From contig CM036632.1 of the NCBI GenBank assembly GCA_020746105.1, forward strand, positions 1,240,001-1,304,000: DNA of 64,000 nt, read 5' to 3'. Within the stretch, counting starts at the first letter, position 1. Each line of letters opens with the position of its first letter. The position numbers and the translations under genes are program-made. The notes beneath the pieces are model-generated. The model was not told where the DNA came from and searched no databases. It worked only from the letters and a program-made list of their open reading frames with translations. Below are positions 3,401 through 64,000 of the stretch, piece after piece. The stretch is from Trogon surrucura (taxonomy: Eukaryota; Chordata; Aves; Trogoniformes; Trogonidae).

Positions 3401-5190
3401 TTCTGAACCAACTGGTGAGCAAACCTCGAGCAAACCTGATCAAAGTCCTGAAGGTAACGGGGCCCACGGGCCCTGAGATGTTTTTTCTTGGCAGCGGTGC
3501 CACCCTCAGGCTTCCCAGCCCACCCCATGCCCACCAATCCCACTCCCATCACAGCCCTTTGGGTGTTCCTGGCCCCAAAGGAGCGTTCCCTCCTACAGGA
3601 TGTGAGACCCAGGGCAGCTGCTGTGCTGTCTCTTTGCGACAGCCACCAAGTAACCAGCACGAACAGAAATGAGCTCGAGGGACAAAAGCCCTGGGGCCAC
3701 GGCACAGCCACCTGCCGCAGGCACGATGTGAGCCCACGGTACCTCCTCACTCCCAGCAACACCGCCACAAGTTTGCGGGTCTGTGCCAGCAGGAAGGGCA
3801 CCCTCCTCTGCACCTGCCAGTATAAAACTCCGCAGCCCCTCTGGTTTGCCCGGAGGAGCCGCGGTGAGGCACGACCTGAGAAATCAGAGAGGAGCCAGCA
3901 CCCACCTGGTTGGGGTGCAGGCAGACGCAGTTAATTGGAGCGTTCACCTGGAAAATCCGCTGGCACTGGAGGTTACGAGACCTGCAACAGAGCAGCGAGG
4001 AAGCAGAGTGTTCAAGAGCACGCAACCAGCACCACTGCCTTTGGGGGGGCACTGCTGGAGGTGGGCACCCACCTCAGGTCCCAGATCCTGGCCATGCAGT
4101 CCTCCCCGCCCGTGTACATCCAGCGCCCATCCTCGTGGAAGCCCACGGAGGTGATGTTCTTGCTCACGCCGTCGTAGTTGATGACAGGGTTGGGGTTGTT
4201 GGAGTTGAGGTCGTACATACGGATGTGCTGGTAGCCTGCAACAACCGGGCAAGGGGTCACCGACGGCCCCCGCCCGCGGCCGGCATCGCCCGCACCGGGG
4301 CGGCGGGGCAGGCTCACCTGCGGCGGCGATCATGCTGCGGTCCGGCGTGATCTCCAGCGCGTTCACCTGCTGCGGATGCCCGTTAAGGTCAGTAAGAAGC
4401 GGCAGCTGGGACCTGGCCCGTGGGACCGAGTGCCCCCGAATGTGGGGAGTCAAACCCAGCTCACCGTGTCCGTCAGGGCGGGTGGAGTAGTCCCCCAGAC
4501 CCCTCCCGGCCTCCCCAGACCCCTCCCGGTCCCCCCTGGTCCCCCCTGGACCCCTTCTGGCTGCCCCAGATGCCTCCCGGTCCCCCCCAGACACCTCCCG
4601 GGTCCCCCCAGACCCCTCCCGGACCCCCCCAGACCCCTCCCGGTCCCCCCAGACCCCTCCCGGTCCCCCCCAGACCCCTCCTGGCCGCCCCAGACCCCTC
4701 CTGGCCGCCCCAGACCCCTCCCGGCTGCCCCAGATCCCTCCCGGTCCCCCTAGACCGCTCCTGGACCCCCCCCAGACCCCTCCCGAACCCCCCCAGACCC
4801 CTCCCGAACCCCCCCAGACCCCTCCCAGATCCCTCCCGGCCTCCCCAGACCGCTCCCGGCCGCCCCAGATCCCTCCCGGTCCCCCTAAACCCCTCCCGGA
4901 CCCCCCCAGACCCCTCCCAGATCCCTCCCGGCCTCCCCAGACCGCTCCCGGCCGCCCCAGACCCCTCCCGGTCCCTCCCCGGACCCCTCCCTGTCCCCCC
5001 CAGACCCCTCCCGGCCGCCCCAGGCCCCCCGGCGCCGGCGCGGTCTGGCGGTGAAGGATACCGAGTCCTGGTGCTGCACGGTGCGGGTGCAGATGCCGCT
5101 GTGCGCCTGCCAGAACCGCACCGTGTGGTCGTAGCCGGCCGTGGCCAGGATGACGGGGTCGCTGCCCACCGTGCCCTGCGCCGCGTTCAT
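491..5190 (-). CDS. MLST8: MLST8 (GbetaL), WD40 subunit of mTORC1 and mTORC2
   Basis: MLST8 is a seven-bladed WD40 propeller that binds the mTOR kinase domain in mTORC1 and mTORC2. Eight coding exons are readable on the minus strand, in gene order: 5190-5062, 4369-4318, 4235-4073, 3981-3906, 2107-1955, 1847-1723, 1320-1157 and 609-491. All introns are GT-AG and phases join, giving 981 nt (326 residues plus TAA), the same length as human. The protein starts [20 protein letters not shown] and ends [14 protein letters not shown], nearly identical to mammalian MLST8. WD motifs visible include HTVRFWQ, IRMYDLN, ARIWDLR, IHIWDLK, CYVWNL, CKIWRT and ARLWCVE. The ATG at 5188-5190 lies in a CpG island. 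Intron 1 carries a G-rich minisatellite and intron 4 (2108-3905) is the longest. The identity is secure; exon edges were assigned by eye. Confidence 0.97.
750..798. repeat. Two-copy 24-bp tandem duplication in MLST8 last intron
   Basis: A 24-bp unit beginning GAGCTGTGCTGAGTAAGG is repeated perfectly head to tail. It lies inside the last MLST8 intron (610-1156) and does not touch the splice sites. It is probably a recent slippage duplication. Confidence 0.8.
4490..5025. repeat. C/G-rich minisatellite in MLST8 intron 1
   Basis: About 25 imperfect copies of a ~20-bp unit resembling CCCCAGACCCCTCCCGGTCC fill most of MLST8 intron 1. On the MLST8-sense strand this is a long array of GGGG/GGGAGGGG tracts and so has dense G-quadruplex potential in the pre-mRNA. 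The array explains the long proline-rich (+) and glycine-rich (-) open frames here, which are not genes. Confidence 0.9.
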
Positions 5191-30900: not shown

Positions 30901-33900
30901 CAACAAAGGTGAGTCTCAGGGTCCTGGATGGGCCCCCTCTCCGCCCCATCCCCCCCGCACTGGCGTGCCCGAGGGGCTCACGGCGTGCCTGTCCCCAGGC
31001 ATGCGGCCCCTGCACTACGCGGCGTGGCAAGGCAAGAAGGAGCCCATGAAAATGGTGCTGAAAGCGGGTTCCTCCGTGAACATCCCATCGGACGAGGGCC
31101 AGATCCCCCTGCACCTGGCGGCACAGCACGGGCACTACGACGTGGTACGGGGGGGCCGGCGGTGGGGAGCGGCGGTGCCGGTGGTGGAGGGTGGGGTCCG
31201 TGCCGCCCTCCTTGCCCTCGCCGAGCCGGGGTCTCGCTCCTCCGCAGTCGGAGATGCTCCTGCAGCACCAGTCCAACCCCTGCATCATGGACAATTCGGG
31301 GAAGACCCCCCTGGACCTGGCGTGCGAGTTTGGCCGGGTCGGGGTAAGTCCTCGCAGAGCCGGACCCCCCCACAGGAGGAAGGTTGGGAGGGGGCGGGGG
31401 CACAGCGAGGTCCTTGGGGTGCTGGCGCAGCGGGGAGGGGGACATGGGGCAGCTCTCAGGAGGGGTGACACCGGGGACCCGTGGTGGGGGCTCTCTGGCT
31501 GCTCAAGGGATGTCAGCAGCAGGGAGGGGAGGTGGGGGCCGGGGGTCCACAGCCCCGGCGGGCGGCTGAGCCGCCCTTGCAGCCCTGCTCCGTCTGTGTT
31601 TGCTGAACCAGGTGGTCCAACTGCTCCTGAACAGCAACATGTGCGCGGCGCTGCTGGAGCCCAAGCCGGGCGACGCCACCGACCCCAACGGCACCAGCCC
31701 CCTGCACCTCGCCGCCAAGAACGGCCACATCGACATCATCCGGTGCGTGCCGTGGGGTGGGGAGGGCAGCGCCGGGACCCCCCCCGCCAGCCCCGGGGCT
31801 GCGCTGACCCCGGTGTCTGCCCACAGGCTCCTTCTGCAGGCTGGCATCGACATCAACCGGCAAACCAAGGCGGGTACGGCGCTGCACGAGGCGGCCCTCT
31901 GCGGCAAAACGGACGTGGTGCGGCTGCTGCTGGATGTAAGGACCCCCCGACCTCCCCTCGATGGCCCCAGCCCAGGGAGCGGCTGCGGGAAGGGAGGGAC
32001 CCCCCAACTGGGGGCTGCAAAACAGCTTGGGCCCCTCCTAGGCCATGGGGGTGAGGGTCCCAGTGTGGGGACAAAGCAAGGCGAGCCACACCCTCCCAGT
32101 GCCGGTCTTGGGGTGGTTCTGGGGGTCCCGGCGGGTGATGGGTGGGTGTCAGCCTCCTCCCAAGCCCTCCCCTTGCTGTTGCAGAGCGGGATCAATGCCC
32201 ACGTCAGGAACACCTACAACCAGACGGCTCTGGACATCGTCAACCAGTTCACCACCAGCCAGGCCAGCAAGGAGATCAAGCAGATGCTGCGGGGTAGGGG
32301 GGGCGAGGGTGGGGTGGCTGTGCCGGCGCTGGGGGGATGCCAGGCAGGGGGGGACAGCACTTGTGGGGCTGGCTGGCCGGTGACGCTCCCGCTCTGTCCC
32401 TGCAGACGCCTCCGCCGCTCTGCAGGTCCGCGCCGTCAAGGATTATTGCAACAACTATGACCTGACCAGCCTCAACGTGAAAGCCGGGGACGTCATCACC
32501 GTGAGTGCGGCTGGGAGGGGGGTTCGGGTCCGGTCGGACCCTGCTGGCGGCACCATTCCCTGACCTGTCCCCACCCGCAGGTGCTGGAGCAGCACGCGGA
32601 CGGGCGCTGGAAGGGCTGCATTCACGACAACCGGACCGGCAACGACCGCGTGGGCTACTTCCCCTCCAGCCTCGTCGAGGCCATAAGCAAACGAACAGGC
32701 AAATAATTGCCCCCCCACCACCATCCATCCCTGCCTCCCCCCCGGGGCTGCTCCCAAACCTGCAGGCCCGGGGAGAGCCCTGTTTCGGTCTGGGGTGTCG
32801 GATGTTGCAGCTGGTGAAGCCAAGCCGGGGCGATGCCCCCGTTCTGCGTGTGTGCCAGCTGTGTGTGTGGGGTTGGTCCCCCGTGAATTGCACAGGGATG
32901 CTGTTCCCACCATGCCTGGGGGGCTGGTGTCCCCACTGAGTGTGCATGTGGGGTTGGTGCTGGCAGCCCCTGGGGGAGGCGTTTGTGATGTCGGTGCATG
33001 GAGCGAGCTGGGGGTGTCACTGCATTTTTTGAGGGACGACGGTGTAGCGGTGAGGCCATGGGACCCCATGCTCAGGGTCTGAGCAAGGAGAGTGGGCACC
33101 GGTGCCAAGGACCCAGCGCGGCCCCGTGGGGACGCGTTCCCTGGCCAGGGGCCAGCTCAGGGATCGGACCCTGCTCCCCTGCCCTGCGGCTGCCTGTCAC
33201 TGTCCCTGTCCCTGCAGGCTCCAGGTGGGGTGCGTGGCCCCCCAACATGGCTTATGGCAGCAGCGGTGCTGGTGCCCGTGGCCACCAGTTCACTTCTGCC
33301 CTGGCAGCCACGTGCTGCCCAGCCCTACGCAATCTGGGGGCAACCAGGTTGCCAGGACACGGGTGGGGAACGGTGGCACTGGAACAACATCCCGAGGGAA
33401 CCACGGCACGAGCTCCTACCGGGCACCGGCCGCGGGGGCTGCGGAGGTGCCGTGTGCCGGGGCAGAGCTTCCTCTGAGCGCGGGTCGTGTGCTGGTACCG
33501 CAGGGCTGAGGTAGCATTTGCCAGGGTGAGGAGTTCCTCAGCCATCCCCTCAGCTGGGGGGATCCCCAGGCAGCAGCGTGGGGAGCAAGTGGTGGCTCCA
33601 CCAGGCAGGTACGGGGGTGCTGTAGCCCCCCCTCGCCTCGTCCCAGGGAGCCGGAGCCCCAGCAGCCCGGCTGAGGGAGCCCCACGAGCTGCTGCTACCT
33701 CGCATGGGGGCTGCCCCAGTGCCCGTGCCCCAGTGGGGGTCCATGGCGGGTCTGGGGGATATTCCCACGGGCTGTATGCCGCCACCGGGCCCTGTGCTGA
33801 GCTCCCGCTGCTGCTCCTTGGCTCAGCTCCACATCGGTCGGGTCTCGATTCTGGCTTCTCCACGCTCCTTTGGTTGCTTTTTTTTTTTTATTTGCTACTT

Positions 33901-36900
33901 TTTTTTTTCCTTCTCCTTTCTTTTGTTCTTTTTCTCTTATCTTTTTTTTTTTTTTCTGGTGGCGCTGAGCGTGTCTCTATTATTTTGATTCTTTTCATTT
34001 TGTCTCTTGTTATGTTTTATTATCAGGTTCATGGGAGACTGTAACAATCCCCCAACAGTACCAAAAGATCCCGCTCCCGGCTTACGGGGCTGCTGTGCTA
34101 AACGGTGACGCCTCGTCCCATCCGTTCCATTCCCTGCCTCCACCTCCACCTCCACCACCACATTCCCATCAGACTCTTTTCAGTTCCTTTGGCTATCACA
34201 GGCTCTCCCCTAGCAGTGCCGACGAGCCGCGTTACGGACAAGGTAGTTCACCGCTCGCTTCGTGCTCTCGATGGATTTCTTTCTTTTCCTTTGACGTGTG
34301 TATCGAGTCTCTTCTTTCTGCTCGGCCTCTCCCCTCCCGCCCCAGCTCTTGCCGTGGTGTGTTTGCACGCGGGTGCGTGCGGGCGCGTGCGAGGGTGTGT
34401 GCATGCAGGTGTGTGTGTGTGCATGCGTGCGTGGGTGCATGCAGGAGTGTTACACGCGTGTGTGCCTGGGTGCATGCGGGTGTGTGCGTGCAGCCGTGCA
34501 TGCCGCCGGCCCCTTGCCCTGCACGCCCTCTCCAGCGCTGCTCTAGCACGGCTCCGCTGCCGCCACGTCCCACCCTCGCCACTGCGGCGTCCCCGGCTGC
34601 GGGGCAGGGATGGGGGCAGCCCACGGCTCCGTGCTCTCTCGCCCACCCTGCCCGGGTGCGTGGGGACCCCTAAATACGCTCTCCAGGCTCTGTGCCTGGG
34701 GGCAGGGCTGGGCGGTGAGCTACAGGTGTGGGGACCCTCTGCCAGCTGCAGCCTCCCTTGCGAGGTGTCGGGCACCCGGCACGATGCTCTGATGCGTCAG
34801 GGCTGGGCCCGGAGCAGGAAGCGGCTGCAGCGCTGGGGGTGCTTTCCTGGGGGATGCTCTCAGGGCTGGGTGAGCACAGGCAGTCCCAGCTAAACCCTGG
34901 TGCCCATCCCCACGGCACGGGCGAGTGATAGATGCCGCAGGTCTATGCGTCAGGAGTGCCCGGAGAGAGGATATTTGACGGGGAAGTTTGTAGGGATGCA
35001 GCCTGGGCCGTGCCCACGGGGGTGTCGGGGAACCGGGGGTCTTCGCATGTGTTCTGGTGGTGGCAGGTCGTGTTGGGAGGGCAGCGCGCTGGCCACGCTG
35101 GGGATGGGGAGAAGGGAGTGAGACTTTTCGCTGGGGCTTTCTCTCCATGCCCAGGCAGCGCGGGTTCCCCTCGGTGTGACGTATGGCACAGGAATGTCCC
35201 AGCCTGGTTGTGGCGTGGCCGTTTGTTCCCCCTCGAGCTCCTTTGGTGACTTTATCACCTTGTACCGTCCACCCCCTGCAATGGCCCAACTGTTAATGGG
35301 GAGAGCGGCTTAGGGAACGAGAACGGCCTGGGCAGCGGCGGGGTGGCAACGCCGGGCTCCTCGGTGGCCAGCGGTGGGGCTGCGGCAGTGCCGGGCTTCG
35401 CAGGGCTGGTGCCATCTCGTGATGCTGTTTAAAGCCCCAGGCTCAGCTCTGGGTGTCCCCAGCCAGCCCAGGGGCGAGCAGGACCCAGCAGATGCGGGCA
35501 GCACGGTGAACCAGCGAAGGAGCGATCCTGCAGGGATGACCCTTGAGCCGGCCGGGAGGGCTGGGTCCTCTCACCCACTGCAGGGTCACTCGCATGTCAC
35601 CGGCTGCCGTGGGGCACCCTGGGGAGCATGGGGGGTTTTGGCACCCAGTGCCTGGCCCCACATTGTCCCTGCCTCCTCCCTGAGATGGGTGCAGCAGCCG
35701 CAGGGGCACGGCCAGCAAGGTCTTGGCCAGGGGACAGTGGGGTGGGGACCCCGGTCCCCACTGCCCGAGTTTGCCCCGCTCCCTTTGCTCTCCCCGCACC
35801 AAGTCAGACGATGTCTCTGTCACCTGCCTGGGTGAGCTGGGTCACTGGGACACCCTCCCATGGGTCTGTCCCCAGCTGGTGGCAGGGAAGGGAGGCCCTG
35901 CAGGATGGGGTCCCAGGGCTGCTCACTGTCACCCTGCGCCAGCCGCCTGGGAAGGGGGGGACAGGCCCCTGGGGCAGCGCTGGCATCCCTGGGCACGGCT
36001 GGGGACTCCACACCTTTGCCACGGGGATCAACGGGCCACGGGTCGCCTCGCTCCGTGCCACGCCGACATGAGCCCGAGCATGCGGAGCCCCTTGGCCTGA
36101 TGGCTGCTCTCTCTGCTCTGCCCCGCCAAGGGTCCCGCGGGGCTGACATGAGCCCGTCCCACCTCTCACCGTCACCGGGAGGATCGACCGCGCCGGCTCC
36201 CGCCGAGGAGATCTGGGTGCTTCGGAAACCCTTCGCAGGTACGGCGGGTGCGCCGCTGTCACCTCCCCGTCCCCGCGGCGGGCACGTGCCGGGGTGTAGT
36301 GGTGGCTCTGGCGGGGCACGGCGGCATTTCCCAACCCGGTGCCCTGACAGCGACTCCTCTCTCTGCGCAGGTGCCGACCGCAGCAGCCTGGGCAGCACGG
36401 GCAGCGTGGCGTCCGCGCGCAGCTCGGGGAGCGGGCAGAGCGCGGGCAGCGGGGCGCACGCCTTGCACGCTGGCTCTGAAGGTGTCAAGGTAAGACGAGC
36501 CCCGAGGCGGCCGTGTCAGCCTGCCGCACCCAAACGGGGACGCGGGGCAGGCGTTTGCTGCCTTGGCGCATGTCCCCTGTCGGGACCGATGCTCGTCTGG
36601 GTGCCGTGAGGTCCTGCTGGCACCCAGCATCACCCGCAGTGACCACCAGCGTGTCCCCTGCTGGCTGGGCCTGGGTTCAGCCCGTGGCACGATGTCCTGC
36701 TGGGCAGGGCCTGCCGGCGCCTTCAGGGTCTGGCGGAGGCTGCGTGCGAGGGCTCTGCTCCCGCTCCGCTCGCGGGGTGCTTCTGCACCGCACCGCGCGC
36801 CGCTGCTGCCACTGGCACACTGCCCCTGCGCCGCGCCCCCCGCGCCCTCCAGCACCCCACGTACTGCTGCCAGCACACCCCTCCCTGCGCACCGCCCGGA

Positions 36901-39900: not shown

Positions 39901-42900
39901 AGGAGAGTCCCCTGGGGTTGTCCCCCAGCAGGATGGGATCACCTGCGTGGCGTGGGGGGTGCTGTCAGCCAGCGCTGAGCCGTGTCCCATGTCCCCTTCC
40001 GCAGGCCAACCTGGCGCTGTGGCTCTCCATGATCGGCCTGTCCCAGTACTACAAGGTGCTGGTGGAGAACGGCTACGAGAACATCGACTTCATCACCGAC
40101 ATCACCTGGGAGGACCTGCAGGAGATCGGCATCACCAAGCTGGGTAAGGTCCCGCGCCGCGGTGCTGAGAGCAGCGGCCCCAGCCCCCAGCGGTGGCACT
40201 GATGTCACCGTGCTGTCCCCAGGCCACCAGAAGAAGCTGATGCTGGCGGTGAAGAAGCTGGCAGAGCTGCAGCGCGCCGAGCTGGGCAAGTACGAGCCGG
40301 GCACGCTCAAGAGGAAGGCGACGGCGGCGGCGTGCCCGGAGGTGCTGACCATCGAGTCCCCCCCGCCGGAGCCTCCCGAGTGCCAGTCGCCCAAGATGAC
40401 CACCTTCCAGGACAGCGAGCTCAGCAGCGAGCTGCAGGTGGCCATGACAGGCGAAGGCCCCGAGGAGCCCCCCGAGAAGGCGGCGAACCCCGCGGCCCCC
40501 GGCTACCGCTCGCCCCCCGGGCTGGGCGGCCGCGCCAGGCTGATGAGCAGCTCCCAGGAGCTGCTGGGGGACGGCCCGCGGGCTCCCCCGGCCTCCGCCA
40601 TCTCCAAGAGCCAGGAGTACCTGGCAGAGGGGGCTGGTGAGGGTCCCGCCGCGCCCCCCAAGGAGAGTCGACCGCCCCGGCACGGCCACCCTGTCAAGCG
40701 TGCCAGCGTGCCACCGGTGCCTGGCAAGCCCCGGCAGCCCTTCCCGCCCTCCGGCGGGCAGCTGACGCCGCCACAGACCCCCGGCAAGCCGCGGCCCCCC
40801 TCCCCGCAAGGCCCGTCGGCGCCCCACGCCACCGCCAAGGTGAAGCCCACCCCCCAGCTGCTGCCTCCCGGCGAGCGCCCGGCGTCGCCCCGATCCCTGC
40901 CCCAGTCGCCCACCCACCGCGGCTTCGCCTACGTCCTGCCACAGCCCGCCGAGGGCGAGGGGGGGGCCCCCGGGGGTGCCCGTCCTGCCCGTCTCGGTGC
41001 CGGTGCTGTGCCTGCCGCCGGCGGGCGAGGGCGAGGAGGAGCCGGGGAGGCCGAAGAAGCGGGCGCACAGCCTGAACCGCTACGCCGCCTCCGACAGCGA
41101 GCAGGAGCGGGACGAGCTGCTGGTGCCGGACGCGGGGCCCTACGCCACGGTGCAGCGGCGCGTGGGGCGCAGCCACTCGGTGCGGGCGCCCGCCGGCAGC
41201 GACAAGAACGTCAACCGCAGCCAGTCCTTCGCCGTCCGCCCCAAGAAGAAAGGGCCCCCGCCACCACCCCCCAAGCGCTCCAGCTCCGCCATCTCCAGCG
41301 CCGGCATGGCCGAGGACTTCCCCAAGGAGGGCGAGGGCGAGGGGGCTGCCGGGAGCCCCCGCCGGCACCGCCGAGGGGGAGAGCCACCGGGAACAGCGTC
41401 GGGCCAGCGACCTGGGCGGCAGTGTGGACACGGGCAGCGCCGGCAGCGTGCGCAGCATCGCGGCCATGCTGGAGATGTCCTCCATCGGCGGCGGGGCCCG
41501 GGCGCTGGCCCTGCAGAAGCCACCCGGGGCCGGCGGGACGGGGCCGGCCAAGGCGCCCGAGGGCTACTACCTGCAACCGGGAGCCCCGGTGGGCAGCCCT
41601 GAGCGTGCTCGCGTGGCCACCGTCCTGGCCACCGTCAAGCACAAGGAGGCCATCGGGCTGGACGGGGAGGTGGTGAACCGGCGCCGGACCATCAGCGGTC
41701 CTGTCACCGGGCTGGTGGCAGCCGCCCGCCGCGAGCGCGCCGACAGCGTGCGGTCGGAGGCGGGTGTTGACGGCCCCGGCGAACGGCTGCGGGTCGAGCG
41801 CGGCGGCTCCCCGGACGCCATCCCCTTTGCTGAGGAGGGCAACCTCACCATCAAGCAGCGGCCGCGGCCCCTGGGGCCGGCCCGGGGGGAGGCAGGTGAG
41901 GGGCTGTCCCCAGCCCACCGCCACGGGGACCTGGCCAAGGTGGAAGCCAGCGCCACGCTCAAGCGACGGATCCGGGCCCGGCAGAGCCAGCAGGACGGCG
42001 TCCGCTTCGTCCTCACCGAGTCCGACACCGTCAAGCGCCGGCCCAAGGCCAAGGACAAGGAGCCGGCGCTCGAGCCGGCCCAGCTCGCCGTCTACCAGAA
42101 CGGCACCGGCACCGTCAAGCGGCGGCCGGCCTCCGAGCTGAGCGGGGCTGAGCCACCCCCCACACCGCCGGCCACCGTCCGCCCCGACGGCCCTGACTAC
42201 GCCCCGCCGCCCGCCGAGCCCAAGAAGCCCTTCAAGCCGCCGGTGTCCCCCAAGCCCGTGCTGACGCAGCCGCCCCAGAAGATGCCTGGACCGCCGGCAC
42301 CCGTCCCCAAGAAGGTGCCCATCCCCAGCCCCGGCAGCCCAGGTAGGTGCCCCGCCAGCCCCCCGCCCCCAGAACGGGACACTGGGGGTCCCGGCTGCCC
42401 TCCTGCCCTTTCTCTCCGCAGAGGTGAAGCGGATCCACGGCACGCCGCCCCCGGTGTCCCCCAAGCCCACGCCGCCCCCCACGGCTCCCAAGCCCCCCAA
42501 GCCCCACGCCGCCATCCAGTCGGTGAGCGCCGGCTCCACGCCGACCCCGTCGCCCGCCCGGCAGCTGGGCGCCGCCACCGGTGCCACCGCCAAGCCGTCC
42601 AGCACGCCGCCGTCGCTCTGCTCCAGCCCTGCCAAGCCCCTGTCGCCCGGCGCCCAGCCCCAGCAGGTGCCGGTGAAGCCCCCCCGCTCCGCCATCGCCG
42701 GCCCCTCCGTCGACACCGCCGGCCCCGAGCTGGCGCAGCAGAAGCTGGAGGAGACGAGCGCGTCCCTGGCCGCGGCGCTGCAGGCTGTGGAGGAGAAGAT
42801 CAAGCAGGAGGACAGTCAAGCGGCAGAGTAAGGGGGTGTGGGGTCAGGGTGGGGCTGGCTGGGGGGGGGTCTCTGGGGAGGGTGGGCAGTGTCCAGAGGC

Positions 42901-43311
42901 CACCAGTGTGGGCAGGGGGTCAGGCTGGGATGGTGGGATTGGGGCTGCGCTGGAGGAAGGTGGTGTTGGGGAGGGGACACGGTGCCGGAGCAGAGTGGGC
43001 AGAGGGGATGCGGGTGCTTGGGGGCACCAAGGGGGCTGTTGTGGTGAGGGGATGCCAAGCTGGAGCATCGCGGGGCTGGGCTGGCTGCCACCGTGCAGGG
43101 AGGGGACACTGGAGGGGGACACAGGGTGCGGGGCAGGAGAGCGGTGGCTCGGGGCAGGGGGGGTCAGCGTGGTGCCGCCATCTGACCCGTCCCCTCCGCT
43201 CGGCGTCTCTCCAGCTCGGCCGTGGAGTCGAAGAGCACCGTGAGCATCCTGGACGACATCGGCAGCATGTTCGACGACCTGGCGGACCAGCTGGACGCCA
43301 TGCTGGAGTGA
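15342..43311 (+). CDS. CASKIN1: CASKIN1, CASK-interacting synaptic scaffold protein
   Basis: CASKIN1 is a neuronal multidomain scaffold that binds CASK. Coding exons: 15342-15435, 28430-28481, 30811-30908, 30999-31144, 31248-31343, 31612-31742, 31827-31935, 32185-32293, 32406-32500, 32581-32698, 34027-34242 (cassette), 36131-36238, 36371-36489, 37279-37366, 38856-38954, 39322-39432, 39522-39623, 40005-40143, 40223-42342, 42422-42827 and 43215-43311. Domains in order: six ankyrin repeats (~49-278), SH3 (~283-345), CASK-binding motif [12 protein letters not shown], two SAM domains (~560-700), a long proline-rich tail, and the conserved end [20 protein letters not shown]. Allowing for three 1-nt excess bases (in exon 38856-38954 and twice in 40223-42342) the product is 1549 residues with the cassette or 1477 without; human is 1431. 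The intron after exon 10 has a GC donor. Identity is certain; the assembled reading frame is not intact. Confidence 0.96.
17000..17013. promoter_or_regulatory. RFX X-box-like palindrome in CASKIN1 intron 1
   Basis: GTTGCTGTGGCAAC matches the imperfect-palindrome X-box (model GTTGCCATGGCAAC) with intact outer half-sites GTTGC and GCAAC and changes only in the centre. RFX factors bind such sites in neural and ciliary genes. It lies about 1.6 kb into intron 1. Confidence 0.4.
17485..17720. promoter_or_regulatory. AT-rich element with X-box and GATA-like motifs, CASKIN1 intron 1
   Basis: This compact AT-rich block in GC-rich intron contains GTTATCTGGATAATATCC (paired GATA-like cores), TTTAATAAATGAG, GAATTAAC and, at 17581-17594, GTTGCTATGGCGAC, a close match to an RFX X-box. 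Later it holds CATAATTGATGAGG. The density of recognisable cores suggests an enhancer; sequence conservation was not tested. Confidence 0.4.
18720..18905. promoter_or_regulatory. AT-rich candidate enhancer in CASKIN1 intron 1
   Basis: The block contains CATATGATTGCATTAATAATC, CTCTGATAACAG, TATTTAATAAAAC, GGCTAATATGGC and CAATTCAATTTCC, all in a region otherwise over 60% GC. Homeodomain-like ATTA cores and a GATA-like core are visible. There is no open frame or polyA context that would make it a gene end. It is a regulatory candidate by composition only. Confidence 0.3.
20755..20905. promoter_or_regulatory. AT-rich candidate enhancer in CASKIN1 intron 1
   Basis: AT-rich island with GCTGTAATGAAATGTTAATAA, TTTTTCAACTCAATACGG and GGTGTTTAACG, flanked on both sides by GC-rich DNA. 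It resembles the islands at 17.5, 18.8, 22.2, 24.1 and 24.4 kb in spacing and composition. No coding potential is seen. Confidence 0.25.
22195..22310. promoter_or_regulatory. Short AT-rich candidate element in CASKIN1 intron 1
   Basis: Contains GGTTCATTAGTTAACGATGC, with adjoining ATTA and GTTAAC cores, and CAGATGATAGC. It is preceded by a GTGCACACGCGTGCACATGTG alternating stretch. Regulatory by composition only. Confidence 0.2.
23640..24030. repeat. Minisatellite of CCAGCTGTGATGGGCA units in CASKIN1 intron 1
   Basis: Roughly a dozen diverged copies of a ~27-33 bp unit built on CCAGCTGTGATGGGCAGTGG and TTGTTATCCAGCTGTGACAG. Translated on the minus strand it gives a periodic Thr-Ala-Gly-rich peptide, which explains the open frames there. 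No gene is implied. The unit contains the E-box CAGCTG many times. Confidence 0.85.
24095..24440. promoter_or_regulatory. Pair of AT-rich candidate elements in CASKIN1 intron 1
   Basis: Two AT-rich pieces, about 24100-24165 (TTATTTATACAGTCAAAATC, GAAGATAACGGCTTCATTAGC) and about 24385-24430 (GATATAATTAAGAGCAGC, TATTTTGGATGC), flank a GC-rich middle. Homeodomain-like TAATTA and GATA-like cores are present. This is inference from composition only. Confidence 0.25.
25084..25262. repeat. Three diverged copies of a TCTCCCCATGGTG repeat
   Basis: Copies begin at about 25084, 25169 and 25220. Each starts TCTCCCCATGGTG followed by a GCTGTGGTGGGGCA-like segment. The spacing of 85 and 51 bp suggests one unit carries an internal extra part. 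It lies in CASKIN1 intron 1 without coding content. Confidence 0.7.
26466..26536. repeat. Perfect 71-bp palindrome (35-bp arms, 1-nt spacer)
   Basis: The left arm 26466-26500 (starts GGGGATCGGCGGCG) is the exact reverse complement of the right arm 26502-26536, with a single T at 26501 between them. There are no mismatches. It lies in CASKIN1 intron 1 about 1.9 kb upstream of exon 2. Such a perfect GC-rich hairpin may be a real fold-back mutation or a sequencing/assembly artefact. Confidence 0.95.
32699..32706 (+). promoter_or_regulatory. CASKIN1: Non-canonical GC splice donor after CASKIN1 SH3 exon, with immediate stop
   Basis: The SH3 exon ends AACAG and is followed by GCAAATAA. No GT lies nearby that keeps the frame, while a GC donor with a good CAG|GCAAAT context joins in phase to both the cassette exon at 34027 and the exon at 36131. 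If the intron is retained, TAA at 32704-32706 ends the protein after 351 residues (ankyrin plus SH3 only). GC donors are weak and often mark alternatively spliced introns. A GT-to-GC base error is the alternative. Confidence 0.7.
33874..34026 (+). promoter_or_regulatory. CASKIN1: Exceptional T/C-rich tract before the CASKIN1 cassette exon
   Basis: About 150 nt of nearly uninterrupted T/C, with several T-runs of 9-13 and motifs such as TTCTCCTTTCTTTTG, TTCTTTTTCTCTTATC and TGTCTCTTG, lead into the acceptor TTTTATTATCAG. PTBP1 binds UCUU and CUUUCU in such tracts and represses neural exons outside neurons. The tract is far longer than at any other acceptor in this window. Confidence 0.55.
34027..34242 (+). 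other. CASKIN1: Candidate neural cassette exon of CASKIN1 (72 codons)
   Basis: This 216-nt stretch is open in the phase set by exon 10 (a split Gly codon) and ends in the same phase at CAAG|GTAGTT, so it can be included or skipped without breaking the frame. It reads [16 protein letters not shown], then [12 protein letters not shown], a run of eight prolines, and [12 protein letters not shown]. Codon use and composition differ sharply from the flanking intron. Skipping joins KRTG directly to SRGADMSPS, matching human KRAG-SRAGTEPS, so the canonical human protein corresponds to the skipped form. The segment would sit between SH3 and the CASK-binding motif and add a proline-rich SH3/WW ligand. 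Confidence 0.7.
34400..34502 (+). promoter_or_regulatory. CASKIN1: Cluster of five TGCATG (RBFOX) hexamers downstream of the cassette exon
   Basis: TGCATG occurs at 34400-34405, 34420-34425, 34436-34441, 34471-34476 and 34497-34502, that is 158-260 nt after the cassette donor. RBFOX proteins bind (U)GCAUG downstream of neural exons to promote inclusion. The stretch is also a GT/GC-rich alternating sequence with Z-DNA potential, so part of the cluster could be simple-repeat coincidence. Further CU-rich motifs lie nearer, at about 34270-34325. Confidence 0.5.
37483..37497 (+). other. CASKIN1: Possible 15-nt microexon in CASKIN1
   Basis: A T-rich tract and ...GTCGCCAG are followed by AAGAAAAACGTGTGG and then GTAAAA. 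In the phase of the preceding exon (ends 37366) the 15 nt add Glu-Glu-Lys-Arg-Val and restore phase. The local AT-rich character is unusual for this intron. The donor is mediocre and no homologous microexon is known to me, so this is tentative and is not in the exon list above. Confidence 0.25.
37660..38215. repeat. GGGGGATGCACACG minisatellite grading into a CACAGA microsatellite
   Basis: About 37700-38105 holds diverged repeats of GGGGATGCACACG-type units. About 38105-38215 is dominated by CACACAGA units. Both lie in the CASKIN1 intron between exons 37279-37366 and 38856-38954. The open frames across it on both strands are repeat translation. Confidence 0.85.
38851..38855 (+). promoter_or_regulatory. 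CASKIN1: NAGNAG tandem acceptor of CASKIN1 exon 15
   Basis: The acceptor reads CTCTCCAGCAG, so splicing can use the AG at 38851-38852 or the AG at 38854-38855. The choice adds or removes one residue and keeps the phase. The listed exon start (38856) uses the downstream AG. Confidence 0.6.
39779..39871. repeat. Near-perfect 93-bp palindrome in CASKIN1 intron
   Basis: Arms 39779-39811 and 39839-39871 (33 bp, starting CCATCAGACTGGTGCCAG) pair with one mismatch. An inner 10-bp pair, TGACACCATG/CATGGTGTCA, is separated by a 3-nt loop, and two 2-bp mismatched steps lie between. Each outer arm contains CACGTG. The hairpin lies in the intron between the two SAM-domain exons (39624-40004). Confidence 0.93.
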
Positions 43312-45426
43312 GGGGCGCCGGGGGGCCCCCGAACCTCAGGGCTTACGTGGGCACAAGGGCACAACGATCCACGACCCCCACCCCCTCGCCCCAACCTCCC
43401 CGGCCCCGCCGCCCTCCCCTTTGTACAGCCGTCCCCTCCCGGCCATCCCGTCCCTCGGGGTTTGCACAAAGAAGAAGATACCTCAGGATTGTGCTCACGG
43501 ACTCGGCGCCCGGCTCCGGCAGGACTCCCTTTTGCAGAAGCAAAAAAAACAAACCGTACAAAAAAAAAACAAACCCCAACCCAACAAACCAACCAACGAC
43601 AGAAGAAACAAAGCAACAAGCTCCGGACCGACACGGCCCCCGCTGGCTGCTGGGGCTCCGGGGGGGCTCTACCCGTCCGGTGCCGGCCCCGGTGCCGCGC
43701 GTCGCCGCGGCCCGAATGTAGCACAAGCCCCTGCCCGGCGCGGTGGCCCCGGCGGTGGCCGCGCGTCGCCGATGGCGTTCGCTGGTGGCGTGTCCGGGTG
43801 GGCAAATGCACTTGGGTTTCTTTTCTCCTCTTTATTTTTTTTTTTTTACTTTCTTTTCTAATTTTCCTTTTAAAATTTTCTTTTTTTTTTCCCCGTCGTC
43901 CGTCGTTCTCGGGGCGCCGCTGCGGCGTCGCGGCGGGCTGGGGGCTGCCCGAGGGGCGCGGGGTCCCGGCCGCGGGGCTCCTCTTGGCGTGGGACGAGCG
44001 TACGTTCCGGGGGGGGGGTTTGGTTGCCTCGGTTACGAATCGGGGAGCGGACGCCCCATCTCGGGGTCCTGGGTGGCGCAGGCGGGCGGGGGGGGGGGGG
44101 GCAGCGGGACGTGCCCCACCCGCTGGGGGGAGAGGACAGTGATAAGCTATAAAGAAGTATTAATTTATTGGAGGGGGGAAAAAGAAAAAAAGATATAAAC
44201 CAGATTTCCCCCACCCCCCCAAAAATAATAAAAAGAATAAACTTTAACAAATATATATTTAAAAGATTTAAAAAAAAAAAAAATATTAGCAATTATATAT
44301 AAAGCAGTTTAAAAGGAATCAAGAGAAAACTGGATTTTAGCTTGAGAAAAACCTATTAGATTATACTAAGCTGTGTGTCTTGTGGCAAACTCATTCTCAG
44401 AGTAGCACAATATTTACCTTGTCTCCGGGTGGAAGGTACGTGCGAGCAGTTCTGTCCGGGTCTTTCCGTTGGGGTTCGGTGTCGCGTCTTTCTTTTTTTA
44501 CGCCGTTAAGAACTCAAAGGATGTGCCTTGTTTTACGGAGGTTTTTTTTTTTTTTCAGTTGGGTTTTTTTTTTTTCTTTTTTCCCCGATAACCGGAGGTG
44601 TTTCATTTCTTCTGGAGTGTCTTCAGGTTTGGGTTCCGTTCGTTAATTAATCTTTTTTTGGTTTTTTTTTTTTTCTTCCTGGGCATCCGTTGGGTGTGCG
44701 CGTGCGTGGGTGTGTGCGTGGGGGGGCGCCCGCCGGGGTGCGTGCGCTCGCGGGCGTCCTGCGGGACGCGCCGCTGTACATTCGTGTATAAACTGGAGTT
44801 GGAGTCTGGTTCAGTCGCTTGAGTCCTGATGAATGCAGTTTAGTTTTTTTTTTTTTTGGCTCGTGGTTTTTTTCCAAACGGACGTGTTGCTGTTCCTTTC
44901 TTTTCTCCAGACGTACAGAGTGGTCTCTCCCTCCTTCCCTCTCCCCCTCCCCACTCCTTTCTCCCTCTCCCCGTCGCTCCCGTTGTGGTCGCTGATCCAG
45001 ATGTGTTTGGCACAACTTTGAAATTTCTTTAAAAAAAACAGACGAACAAAAGACTTTAAAAATCACAAAAAAAAAAAAAAAAAAAAAGTATCACCCGCCT
45101 GAAAATATCTGTTGGAAAGAAAAAAAACAAACCATATGTATCTAAAAAAAAAAAAAAAAAAAAATCCATAAAGTTCTACATGATGGATATATACATATAT
45201 ATATTTTTTATGATTAAGTTATGGACTCTGTATCGTATCCCATCTGTCAAGCTATGCATCTTGGTGCTTCTCCCTGCTCTTCTGTGCTTAGATTTCACCT
45301 CTACTCGTCTTATTCTTCCTATTCTGAATAGTAGATGGCTCGTGGTGCTGTGAAGAAGTTTGCTCCTATACGAAGTCTGGCAACAAATATTTAAAGAAAA
45401 ATAATAAAAAAAAAATAATAATAAAA
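43312..45426 (+). other. CASKIN1: CASKIN1 3' UTR with clustered polyA signals
   Basis: The long 3' UTR starts after TGA at 43309-43311. It is GC-rich at first, then AT-rich with T-runs, A-runs (about 45070-45090 and 45145-45162), a CAAACAAACC-type A-rich stretch at about 43540-43620, and a GTGTGCGTG patch at about 44695-44720. AATAAA occurs at 45403-45408 and 45420-45425 and probably marks the 3' end. Earlier AATAAA copies near 44225-44240 may give a shorter form. The open frames here are not coding. Confidence 0.75.
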
Positions 45427-45724
45427 TCCTTGCCGGGCTGCCACCGCTCTTTGTGTCCCCGAACCGCCCGCCACCGCGTGCGATGGCTCCCGCTGCACGG
45501 CCGGGGCTGGCGGGCAGGCCCTGGGGGGGTCTCGGGCCGTGGGTGTTTGTGACACGGCCACGATCAGCTCTCCCCGCCGGGGTTGCCGGTTTTTTGCCCC
45601 GTTTTTCGCCGCGGGGGCCGTGGCTGCGCCCACCCCTCGCCGGCTGGAGGAGGCAGGAGCTGCGGCGGGGCGCCGGCGCTGGCCCGGCAATAACTCACGC
45701 TGGCCAGGAACAACTCTTTCCACT

Positions 45725-45730
45725 TTTATT
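45725..45730 (-). terminator. TRAF7: PolyA signal of TRAF7
   Basis: TTTATT on the + strand reads AATAAA on the minus strand, about 780 nt beyond the TRAF7 stop codon. It faces the CASKIN1 polyA signals about 300 nt away, so the two genes are tail to tail. The 3' UTR is 45.7-46.5 kb, with its stop-proximal half GC-rich. Confidence 0.75.
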
Positions 45731-46504
45731 GTCAATGAAGAAATAATCAAATCTATATTACAATCTTAAAAACAGTAGAAAATGTGAGTAAAAATGCAAC
45801 GGAGGCTTTTTCTCTTTAATGTGGAGACCATTATTACAGGGTGGCGAACGATGGGCTTGTGTTACTTGATTTGAGAACTAACTGTGGCGTAAAAATCGTA
45901 CCTGGCTACTCAAGAAAACAGCTCTTCCCACATGGATCAGCCTGACATCTTGGCAGTAAAATTAAATACTAGAGACTGGAAGGGGTCGGGGTCCCAACGC
46001 AGGGCGAGGCCTAATGCTCAGTTCTACCATTTACAAGGGGACCGGCGCTGCCGCGCCAGCGCCCGCCTGCGACAAACACACCGAGCGAACCCTTCCGTCC
46101 CATCGCTGGCCAGTGGCTCTGCTGCCTCTGCACGGGGGGGGCTGCCCCGGCCGGGAGACCCCAGCCCCAGAGGATGCTCCCCGGCCAGGGAGGGGGCACA
46201 CGGCAGGAGGAGGGCACCCCGAAGGTGCCGGCAGGGCGACGGCTTCCTCCGCATCTCCAACGGCGCGCGGCGGGGCCAGGGGAGCGTCGGGAGCGCCTGC
46301 GGCCGGAGCCGTCCTGAGAGCTGCCAGCCGGGTGCCGGCGGGCGGGGGGACCAGCTGGCAGGGGGGCGGCAGGCAGTGGTCGGTGCGGAGAGGAGCAGCA
46401 GCGGTTCTTTCGGTTCTTTCGTAGCGGCGTGGGGTCGCCCCGGCGGGCTGACGGAGGAGAGGAGTTTTGGTCTTTCGGCGTGCGGGACCGGCGCGGTGCT
46501 CTCG

Positions 46505-60701
<14,197 letters not shown>

Positions 60702-63700
60702 CTTCAAAGAGAGAAAAAAACAGTTCTTGTTACTGTAAATAATTCCAAAACCCCATGAATAGAGACTTTGAGTTCAGTCCCACCCTTCCACAAAACTCAG
60801 CTGCTCCATTTGTTCACCCGCTCTGCCAAGCTGCGCGGAGCGGCCCCAGAAGCGCCGCGTCTCGCCGCCGCGCGCCCTCCCCAGCAACAGGCAGGCACTG
60901 GGCAGGTTTAACTCGCTAAAACCGAGCCAACGCCTCGATTCCAAGCACGTAACTTTCTCAAAGGTGCATTCGTTTGCATACTTACTGCGTGCACCGGGGA
61001 GGCGATCGTTTGGAAGAATTAATCCTTCAGAGCAAGCTTTGTAAATCTCCCCCAGAGACAGCTACCAGCTCCTGCAGTTTCTATAATCTCTGTGGCAGCG
61101 CTTGTTGTTTCGCTCGCTATCTAACTTCTGCCAAATTTCTTTGCGTAAGTGTGGAGACTTCCTTCTATTCAATTCAGTAACAGACCGGCTTTGTCGCTTC
61201 CTGCTCGGGAGGGGAGAGCTCGGTGGACACCGCGCGCACCAATCAAGAAAAATGCCCCTGGTTACGGCGGCCTTGGGATTGGCTTTGAGGGAATGCCGAG
61301 GCTGGAATATTAACCAGCGGCGCATCTCTGAGGGTGGGATACGCAACCAGAAGCGTGAAGCCGAGATGCAATTTGGCATCGAAGCGAAACTGGAGACTTT
61401 TCAGAGCAGGGGGTGATTGGACTCGTCCGTCTGCCGCTGCTGGGTGACTCCAGAGGAGGTGCTGCTGGCAGACTGGGAAGAGTGCGGAGAGAAGCAATAA
61501 AAAGTCTTCAAGGAGCGGGACGGGCTGACAAAGACGCAGGAGAATGAAGCCATAAGCCTCAGGCACTTGGCATCAAGAGGTGACCAGTGCCCAGGCTGCC
61601 TGCTCCCGCACATATCACACCTACACACGGCTTCACTGCAGCCTACGTGAATCACAAACTCCTAGAAGCACTGGCTTGGAAGGAGCTCTGGAGATGGGCT
61701 GGCCACTCAAAGAGAGATGGGTCAGCCCCGATCCTGCCCAGCTGGAAGGGGGAAAACTGCACAGATGAGACTTTGTCACCCCAGGTTCCTGTCCTGTGCC
61801 ACCTCGTGAGCAAAACGTTTTTTTCCTTGTGTTTAATCTGAATCTCCCGAGCTGTATTTTGCGTGCTGGCCCTGAGCGAAAGCGTGCGATGTGAAACCCA
61901 AGGAGAGACAAAAGCAATGCAGGAGGCCAGTGGGGCAGTCGGGAAATACATCAATGGAAGATGTAAGATGAGGTTCAGGGACTGCTGTGCTCCCCAGAGA
62001 CAGACTGTGCTGCAGTCTGAGCGCAGTCCTTGCTGGGCTGCAGAAGAGGAGCCGACCAGGATTGTCCTGGTTCTTCACGCCGCTCCTCTCCTTAATTTTT
62101 ATGGTACTGGGATCCTAGGAACTCAGAAATGCTGCATCTGCTTAGAAGGCAAAGCATAAAGCTCTTCTTCTTAAAGACGGCACATTTATTGGCTAAATCT
62201 GTAAACCTCGAGGAGGAACGGTTATAACGAGGTAAATCAATTTTATGCGTCTCCATTAATTTTATCATTTTCCTCCGCTAGTAACAGAAATTATTAAAGT
62301 GACAAGAATGACTGTGCACAGTGCCCATTGTGGAGGTGACACAGCAATCGGGGCAGCAAAGGCAGGCTCTGCAGAGAGGCAGCTTCATCAAAAGCAACAT
62401 CCTGTGTGGGTCACTGACGGAGACGGGGGAACTGCAGCCCAAGAGCACTTCCAGGGGGCAGAGGTGTAAGCCACAGCCTTGCTAGGCTTGTGCAGCACCG
62501 AGGGCTCAGCTCCCCGCATCCTGGCTGGGCTAACACTGGTGTTAACCATGCCGGAAAGAAGTCGATGCGCTGAGAGAGATCCCTCCACGTGGAGACAAGG
62601 CTGAGAGGTGTGTGCTGGCATTTGCTGCCCCTGTAGGCATCTGCAGCCTTCGTTTTTGCCAAGCAAACGAGGCTGAGACCCACGAGACCTCACCTCTGCA
62701 GGGTGAGCCACAGCACCACTTCCCGCTCTTAGCCTGGCGATTTAGACCGAGCTTTGCAGCACCAGCCGGGCACAGAGCTGCCAGCACAGGCTCCAGAGAG
62801 AATAAGAGGGAGTGAGGACCACAGGGCATCTGCCCAGGCTGGAGGACAACCCCTCTGCCCCAAAGCAAGGAGCACCAGCCCCCGCCACAGGGTTTGCAGT
62901 TCAGGACCTGCAGAGTTCAGGGAAGAGGTGGCACAGCTTCAGCCAGGCTTGGGTTTGGGAGGATCCGTCAGAAGGGTCCCACGTCCCTGCAGCAGCACCA
63001 GGGCTATTTCTGCGCTAAGCATCAAGTCCTTCTTCAAACAGCCCAAGGATGGAGCATTGAAAGATGTTCTAATGGGAAATGGATGGCTTGTGGCTGCCAG
63101 TACCTCAGCCCCAGCTCCATGTAAACAGCCAAGACTCTGGACGGGCAGTCAGCGTACATTTGGCCCAAATACTCAGCTGTAATTTTTAGGTGCAGTTCTC
63201 ATCATGTCAGTTACAAAAGTCAGCCTCCATATGAAGGCTCTAGCACAGTCCTCAACTCTGCTCCCTGTAGGCACAGTGAGGCTGGAAACCCGTGTTTTCA
63301 AGGAAAGATGGCAGCGGCTGCTCAATAATTCCTGCCTTGCTCACGGAACACGCTGCTCCGCTTTCAGTTTCATTAACAGAAGCTTTAAAAAGAAAGAAAA
63401 AGGGATGGTGGAGGTCACAGGAGGGCTCTGACTCGTCTCCAGCTGTCTCTCTGATGGCTGACAAGCCCTTGGCAGCTTCTGGAGAAGGGAAAACTTAGCA
63501 ATGAGGAAGGGAAATCCCTGATTATTTCTTGACAAAGCGATGGAAGCTTCCGAAAAGGGTTAGTCAGAGTCAGGCAGAGCAGGGCTGCGGTGCTTCTGGC
63601 TTGTTAACACCTCACGCTGCAGGCTGCTTCCCAAACCACTCGATGAATCCTCTTGCTATTTTTGCGTACGAATATTTAGCACTGCAGGGAAGGTGGGCTG

Positions 63701-64000
63701 AGACTGTCCGAGAGGACTGAGGTCAGGTCCTAGCAGAGATCTCTCCTGCTCTTTGTCACACACCTCAGTGCACGATACTGGGGTTTTCAAAAGAGTCATG
63801 GAGCTCCTCTGTTAGATGTGGCTAAATGTCCCCAGCAGCCCTCACACCTCTGGAAAAACTCCCACCTACGCCCTACAAGAACTACAGAGCTGATGGGAAG
63901 GGTGCAGCAGGCGCAGCACTCTGCCTCAGGATCAGCACCGAGAGCCAGGGGCTTCCTGAACAGCAGCCCAGCACCACGGGGCCAGTGATGCGACGGAGCG
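60702..64000. other. Upstream part of TRAF7, presumably an intron
   Basis: No TRAF7 N-terminal exon and no other recognisable exon is seen on either strand. A decayed CR1-like segment may lie at about 61650-61720. Two CCAAT-type motifs (ACCAATC at about 61239 and GATTGGC at about 61276) sit in a mildly GC-rich patch at 61200-61330. The rest is single-copy DNA with short shadow frames. Confidence 0.45.

Follow-up and report, generated by a model that had tools for sequence, protein, structure and literature searches.

We describe a candidate cassette exon in CASKIN1 of Trogon surrucura. The window analysed is a 64,000-nucleotide stretch (C19:1240001-1304000) of a genome comprising 1.17 Gb in 164 contigs. 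Within it the candidate exon occupies 34027-34242 (216 nt), lies after the exon that completes the SH3 domain and before the one that encodes EEIWVLRK, the CASK-binding motif, and is open in the CASKIN1 frame. A T-rich tract precedes it and a tight cluster of TGCATG hexamers follows it. On balance we lean towards reading 34027-34242 as a genuine cassette exon of bird CASKIN1 that would be repressible by PTB and depend on RBFOX for its inclusion. The candidate is plausible and fairly ordinary, not a demonstrated isoform; from the DNA we infer its use in RNA, its regulators, the disorder of the insert and its binding partners. The features on which the argument draws are as follows.

32581..32698, + strand: CASKIN1 exon, second half of the SH3 domain (118 nt; a query of both SH3 exons matches PDB 7aty)
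32699..32704, + strand: GC-type 5′ splice site GCAAAT, common to both isoforms (from sequence; score 2.8 with textbook weights)
33876..34025, + strand: T-rich polypyrimidine tract ahead of the cassette (65% T, 81% pyrimidine)
34027..34242, + strand: candidate cassette exon of 72 codons in phase 1-1 (frame open from AG to GT)
34395..34502, + strand: GT-rich stretch with five TGCATG (RBFOX-type) elements, their first bases 158-255 nt past the exon end
36131..36238, + strand: exon with the CASK-binding motif EEIWVLRK (Pfam Caskin1-CID match)
36371..36489, + strand: following CASKIN1 exon (GADRSSLGS...EGVK), inside the Caskin1-CID match

The acceptor of the candidate exon reads TTATCAG/G and the donor AAG/GTAGTT, the slash marking the exon boundary. 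The flanking AG and GT are thus in place and, with 216 nt in phase 1-1, the frame is kept on inclusion and on skipping. The initial annotation had proposed a phase-symmetric open exon of 72 codons between the SH3 and EEIWVLRK exons, and its coordinates, phase, splice dinucleotides and frame were all correct. A DNA search of the bird's own genome, in which simple repeats are skipped, found no second copy of the exon. Outside its own locus the query matched four further places, all in its T-rich part (query positions 30-171 of 520). An origin from a repeat is unsupported, since only this T-rich part recurs elsewhere in the genome. An alternative terminal exon was also rejected; neither AATAAA nor ATTAAA is present in 34243-36130. 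In prokaryote and viral contigs, scans revealed neither contaminating vertebrate sequence nor any relative.

Putative splicing signals around the candidate exon

The TGCATG hexamers begin at 34400, 34420, 34436, 34471 and 34497. Five occur in 34243-34542 against 0.48 expected, a number reached by none of 2000 shuffles. The excess persists when the comparison is confined to the GT-rich sequence itself: 1.25 are expected in 34360-34510 (151 nt; 2/2000 shuffles) and 1.52 in 34395-34510 (1/2000). For the whole downstream intron the expectation is 1.14 (18/2000 shuffles). Over the whole window, both strands counted, TGCATG is depleted (32 against 45.7 expected), and on the + strand no 300-nt segment outside the cluster, taken in 50-nt steps, holds more than two. 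Genome-wide (1.17 Gb) the two strands carry 257 and 270 instances of three TGCATG with the same spacing, and the reversed control gives 34 on each; the spacing pattern was picked after the cluster had been seen, and overlapping matches within one cluster were counted separately. At this frequency about 4e-4 such groups would be expected on the sense strand of the downstream intron, which is 1.9 kb long. Among the matches listed, several are GT-rich arrays like that of CASKIN1. The five downstream hexamers of the initial annotation are therefore present and clustered beyond chance. They form a credible putative RBFOX-type enhancer and support RBFOX-type control.

TGTGTG is also enriched in 34243-34542 (7 against 1.5 expected; 0/300 shuffles), so CELF-type control is an alternative, with GU-rich binding downstream of the exon possible. 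YCAY, ACTAAY, YGCY, CTCTCT and GGGG are not enriched in the 300 nt on either side of the exon (lowest 65/300 shuffles); YCAY occurs once downstream against 4.3 expected.

Upstream, of the 6385 stretches of 150 nt compared across the window in 10-nt steps, the one starting at 33871 is richest in T. The GC content is 31% in 33850-34026, 55% in 34243-34360, and 68% in both 32699-33850 and 34510-36130. AG dinucleotides occur in the tract at just two positions, 33968 and 34025. A branch-point-like A is located at 33988 (39 nt upstream of the exon) or at 33997 (30 nt).

The SH3 exon in front of the cassette ends in CAG/GCAAAT, a GC donor whose +5 position departs from consensus and which the initial annotation did not mention. 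In the same genome the counterpart donor of CASKIN2 is CAG/GTCAGT. Alternatively spliced genes are reported to show an enrichment in GC donors (PMC2490688). Both isoforms use the GC donor, which alone therefore cannot choose between them. Its use might delay excision of the intron upstream of the cassette.

The paralog CASKIN2

CASKIN2 was located through its SH3 exon, on contig C22 in locus L009 (74% identity over 39 residues); the only other match was CASKIN1 itself. The CASKIN2 SH3 exon is 118 nt long, has the same phase as that of CASKIN1 and ends in a GT donor. Between it and the next exon shared with CASKIN1 lies a single phase 1-1 exon, 183 nt long (L009 2995-3177, boundaries placed by eye), which takes the place that the cassette and CASK exons occupy in CASKIN1. 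It is proline-rich and comprises 61 codons (60 whole codons translated) with no tryptophan, and thus has no CASK motif of the IWV type. This agrees with published descriptions of CASKIN2 as having no CASK-interaction domain (PMC4994250).

We compared the 183-nt exon with CASKIN1 against shuffled sequences. With the CASK exon, 926/2000 (local) and 129/2000 (global) shuffles scored at or above the observed alignment; with the cassette and CASK exons joined, 1246/2000 and 495/2000 did so. Homology confined to the C-terminal parts was tried and rejected (276/2000 shuffles, no signal). A translated search of the genome with the cassette, reporting E values up to 10, gave 18 matches, namely itself and 17 weak matches, none of them on C22; the best weak match (E 9.2e-4, on C1) contains an internal stop. 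On these comparisons the paralog neither supports nor refutes the candidate exon.

Assessment of the candidate exon

From sequence alone we consider the exon moderately strong, and a number of observations weigh against it or against its proposed control. Dinucleotide shuffles of the exon are themselves open in the required frame in 365 of 2000 cases, as are 545 of the 2626 window segments of 53-62% GC. The open frame is therefore weak evidence; it also overshoots the exon, running from 33969 to a stop at 34671. The GC content at the three codon positions (0.64, 0.56, 0.53) has little periodicity, and the third-position value is far under the 0.90 of other CASKIN1 coding sequence (150 codons from 40402). 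Low periodicity and low third-position GC may mean that the sequence is under regulatory constraint, that the exon is young or that there is none. The intron was scanned for pairs of splice sites scoring at least 4 each, 60-300 nt apart and compatible with the frame, with overlapping candidates counted and with textbook weights. Eight exon-like candidates were obtained, among which 34027-34242 ranks third by summed score and has the top acceptor. On the same weights the cassette acceptor scores 10.8, compared with 5.7 for that of the next exon, and the donors score 6.4 (cassette), 8.4 (next exon) and 5.0 (preceding SH3 exon). The cassette donor has no G at +5, yet it is "weak" only in relative terms, as the donor of the preceding SH3 exon, taken as constitutive, scores lower.

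The regulatory signals are open to similar objections. The initial annotation described a T/C tract of about 150 nt rich in PTB motifs. The tract is clearly present; the motif enrichment is not. In 33847-34026 the PTB tetramers do not exceed what composition gives in dinucleotide shuffles (observed/expected: TTCT 8/8.7, TCTT 6/8.7, CTCT 3/2.7, CTTT 8/9.1, TTTC 5/7.9), and since composition alone yields them they are not separate evidence. Alternative micro-exons are reported to have a lower T content immediately upstream (PMC4317164), unlike our candidate, which is no micro-exon. Three of the five TGCATG lie inside a period-20 tandem array (34395-34450), so that the five are not independent of one another. 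The CASKIN2 exon resembles the cassette no better than shuffled sequences do (1111/2000 local and 765/2000 global at or above the observed score).

These observations bear on three other explanations. The open stretch may be a pseudo-exon that mature RNA does not use, its splice-like sites being a product of chance where the intron turns AT-rich. That eight candidates emerge from simple scoring, that about one in five segments of like GC is open and that codon periodicity is slight all favour this explanation. We nevertheless think it unlikely, since the top acceptor, the right phase on both sides, a peptide free of cysteine and an uncommon TGCATG cluster coincide at one site. The exon may instead be real and used constitutively in birds, or almost so, in which case the form without it would be the mammalian or reference one. 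An acceptor well above that of the next exon is consistent with this, and CASKIN2 too has a single phase 1-1 exon after its SH3 exon. The missing G at +5 of the donor and the RBFOX-type cluster argue against constitutive use, and the CASKIN2 exon has no similarity to the cassette beyond shuffles; we regard such use as rather unlikely. A third explanation, which we consider improbable, is a real cassette in which RBFOX and PTB play a small part and control lies chiefly with different factors, for instance CELF-type proteins bound to the GU-rich tract. The downstream TGTGTG excess and the ordinary density of PTB motifs would fit such control, but even inside the GT-rich segment TGCATG exceeds expectation. 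A PTB-repressible, RBFOX-dependent cassette exon thus remains the reading we favour, and its splicing is probably regulated in neurons.

The inserted peptide and its possible consequences

The 72 residues with the following Gly (73 residues) contain 14 prolines and no cysteine. LPPPP at residue 37 fits the EVH1 class 1 core [FWYL]PxPP and is a predicted ligand. The same 73 residues have no match to the class I or class II SH3 ligand motifs (a basic residue at the defining position of PxxP). The initial annotation had placed an eight-proline ligand next to the CASK site; LPPPPPPPP is there and matches an EVH1-type core, but a standard SH3 motif is missing. No known domain was found above threshold in the peptide (best Pfam match VIR_N, E 0.013, 15.4 bits against a cut-off of 27.7), and the best match in a PDB search has E 7.8. 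Four coding-like pieces of the CASKIN1 C-terminal region, picked by eye (190, 106, 314 and 129 residues), contain no EVH1-type core and a six-proline run in one; together they match SH3-type motifs 10 times for class II and 5 times for class I. The SH3 domain of Caskin1 is reported to be without the typical peptide groove (PMC7830187). An intramolecular latch between this domain and the insert is disfavoured on that account and because the peptide has no SH3 class motifs. The Abi1 site in Caskin2 is of the PxxPxR type (PMC11166458), and a polyproline insert would therefore suit a different partner.

With the exon included, the SH3 domain and the CASK-binding motif would be set apart by 72 further residues, proline-rich and probably disordered, and the frame would stay intact. 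Skipping would leave the standard domain order, and we take canonical CASKIN1 to be without the 72 residues and so to equal the skipped form. The strong acceptor with its extended U-rich tract would be open to PTB-type repression in progenitors or immature neurons, and the imperfect donor with the downstream UGCAUG cluster would make inclusion reliant on RBFOX in maturing neurons. Caskin1 expression is reported to be restricted to brain (PMC11166458), so regulation would be developmental within neurons and not a matter of brain versus non-brain tissue. The insert would lengthen the linker to the CASK site and supply LPPPPPPPP as a ligand of the EVH1/profilin type. Caskin1, Mint1, Tiam1 and liprin-alpha are reported to compete for the CaMK domain of CASK (PMC10136522). 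If the exon is used as proposed, neurons would have a simple means of altering the partners brought to neurexin as they mature, in the form of a spacer and polyproline next to the Caskin1 motif whose presence is set by splicing. A bolder proposal is that birds, perhaps all amniotes, have a neuron-stage-switched CASKIN1 isoform with an EVH1/profilin-type polyproline beside the CASK motif, such that splicing, tuned by the GC donor, couples neurexin-CASK to actin assembly in maturing neurons. We regard this as quite doubtful.

The CASKIN1 gene and its surroundings

The gene in the window is CASKIN1, from its domain content. Twenty open reading frames (ORFs) chosen in and around it were searched against Pfam, and ankyrin repeats were found in two and SAM domains in two. 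One SAM match, SAM1, falls below the Pfam cut-off, yet it matches Caskin-1 3sei (E 5.4e-14). The query of both SH3 exons matches the human Caskin-1 SH3 domain (PDB 7aty) with E 3.5e-34. Pfam Caskin1-CID is matched by the skipped form (E 3.3e-26) and by the included form (E 8.9e-26); in both the match begins at EEIWV, that is, in the exon after the candidate and not in the candidate itself. Pfam matched none of another 20 ORFs chosen outside CASKIN1.

In 41291-41470 the CASKIN1 coding frame seems to switch (from ..PKEGEGEG to another frame) with no intron visible by eye. Possible causes are a short indel, misassembly of G-rich sequence or a splice that went unrecognised. More frame changes are seen in the large proline-rich region of CASKIN1, at about 40.9-41.1 kb and 42.3-42.5 kb. 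Judged from translations only, ordinary introns that end ahead of GEGEEEPG and EVKRIHG may account for them. The GC content is 0.72 in 40001-44000 and falls to 0.53-0.55 in the subsequent 4-kb blocks (44001-64000). Elsewhere in the window we note a C-rich minisatellite (4492-5028; overlapping periods 20, 41, 135 and 175) and a tandem duplication (51353-51491; unit 72 bases, 1.9 copies, 92% matches).

Comparison with known systems

Our literature searches, which included peptide strings, found no description of the exon; predicted gene models, which may already annotate it, lie outside what was searched. The claim of the initial annotation that the exon is undescribed holds to that extent. Isoform and splicing terms in the excerpts of PMC6202847, PMC6856520, PMC3549760, PMC9859343, PMC11166458, PMC4994250 and PMC7830187 point to no splice form of Caskin1; where "isoform" appears there, it refers to Caskin2.

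Against the canonical form of CASKIN1 (human Q8WXD9, rat Q8VHK2), the bird gene has the same order of ankyrin repeats, SH3 domain, CASK-interaction domain and SAM pair. Compared with CASKIN2 of the same genome, the SH3 exons are alike in length and phase, whereas the next exon there is 183 nt long and dissimilar and the donor is GT, not GC. The arrangement belongs to a familiar class of regulated exon. Neural micro-exons co-regulated by PTBP1 and RBFOX likewise have an upstream T-rich tract and downstream TGCATG, preserve the frame and can lie in a synaptic scaffold gene, and for alternative micro-exons a T content raised beyond 20 nt upstream is reported (PMC4317164). Our candidate has TGCATG enriched within about 300 nt downstream, as exons of this class do. 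It differs from the micro-exons in its length of 216 nt and in PTB motifs no denser than composition gives. As splicing biology it would, if true, be one further case of a well-known arrangement.

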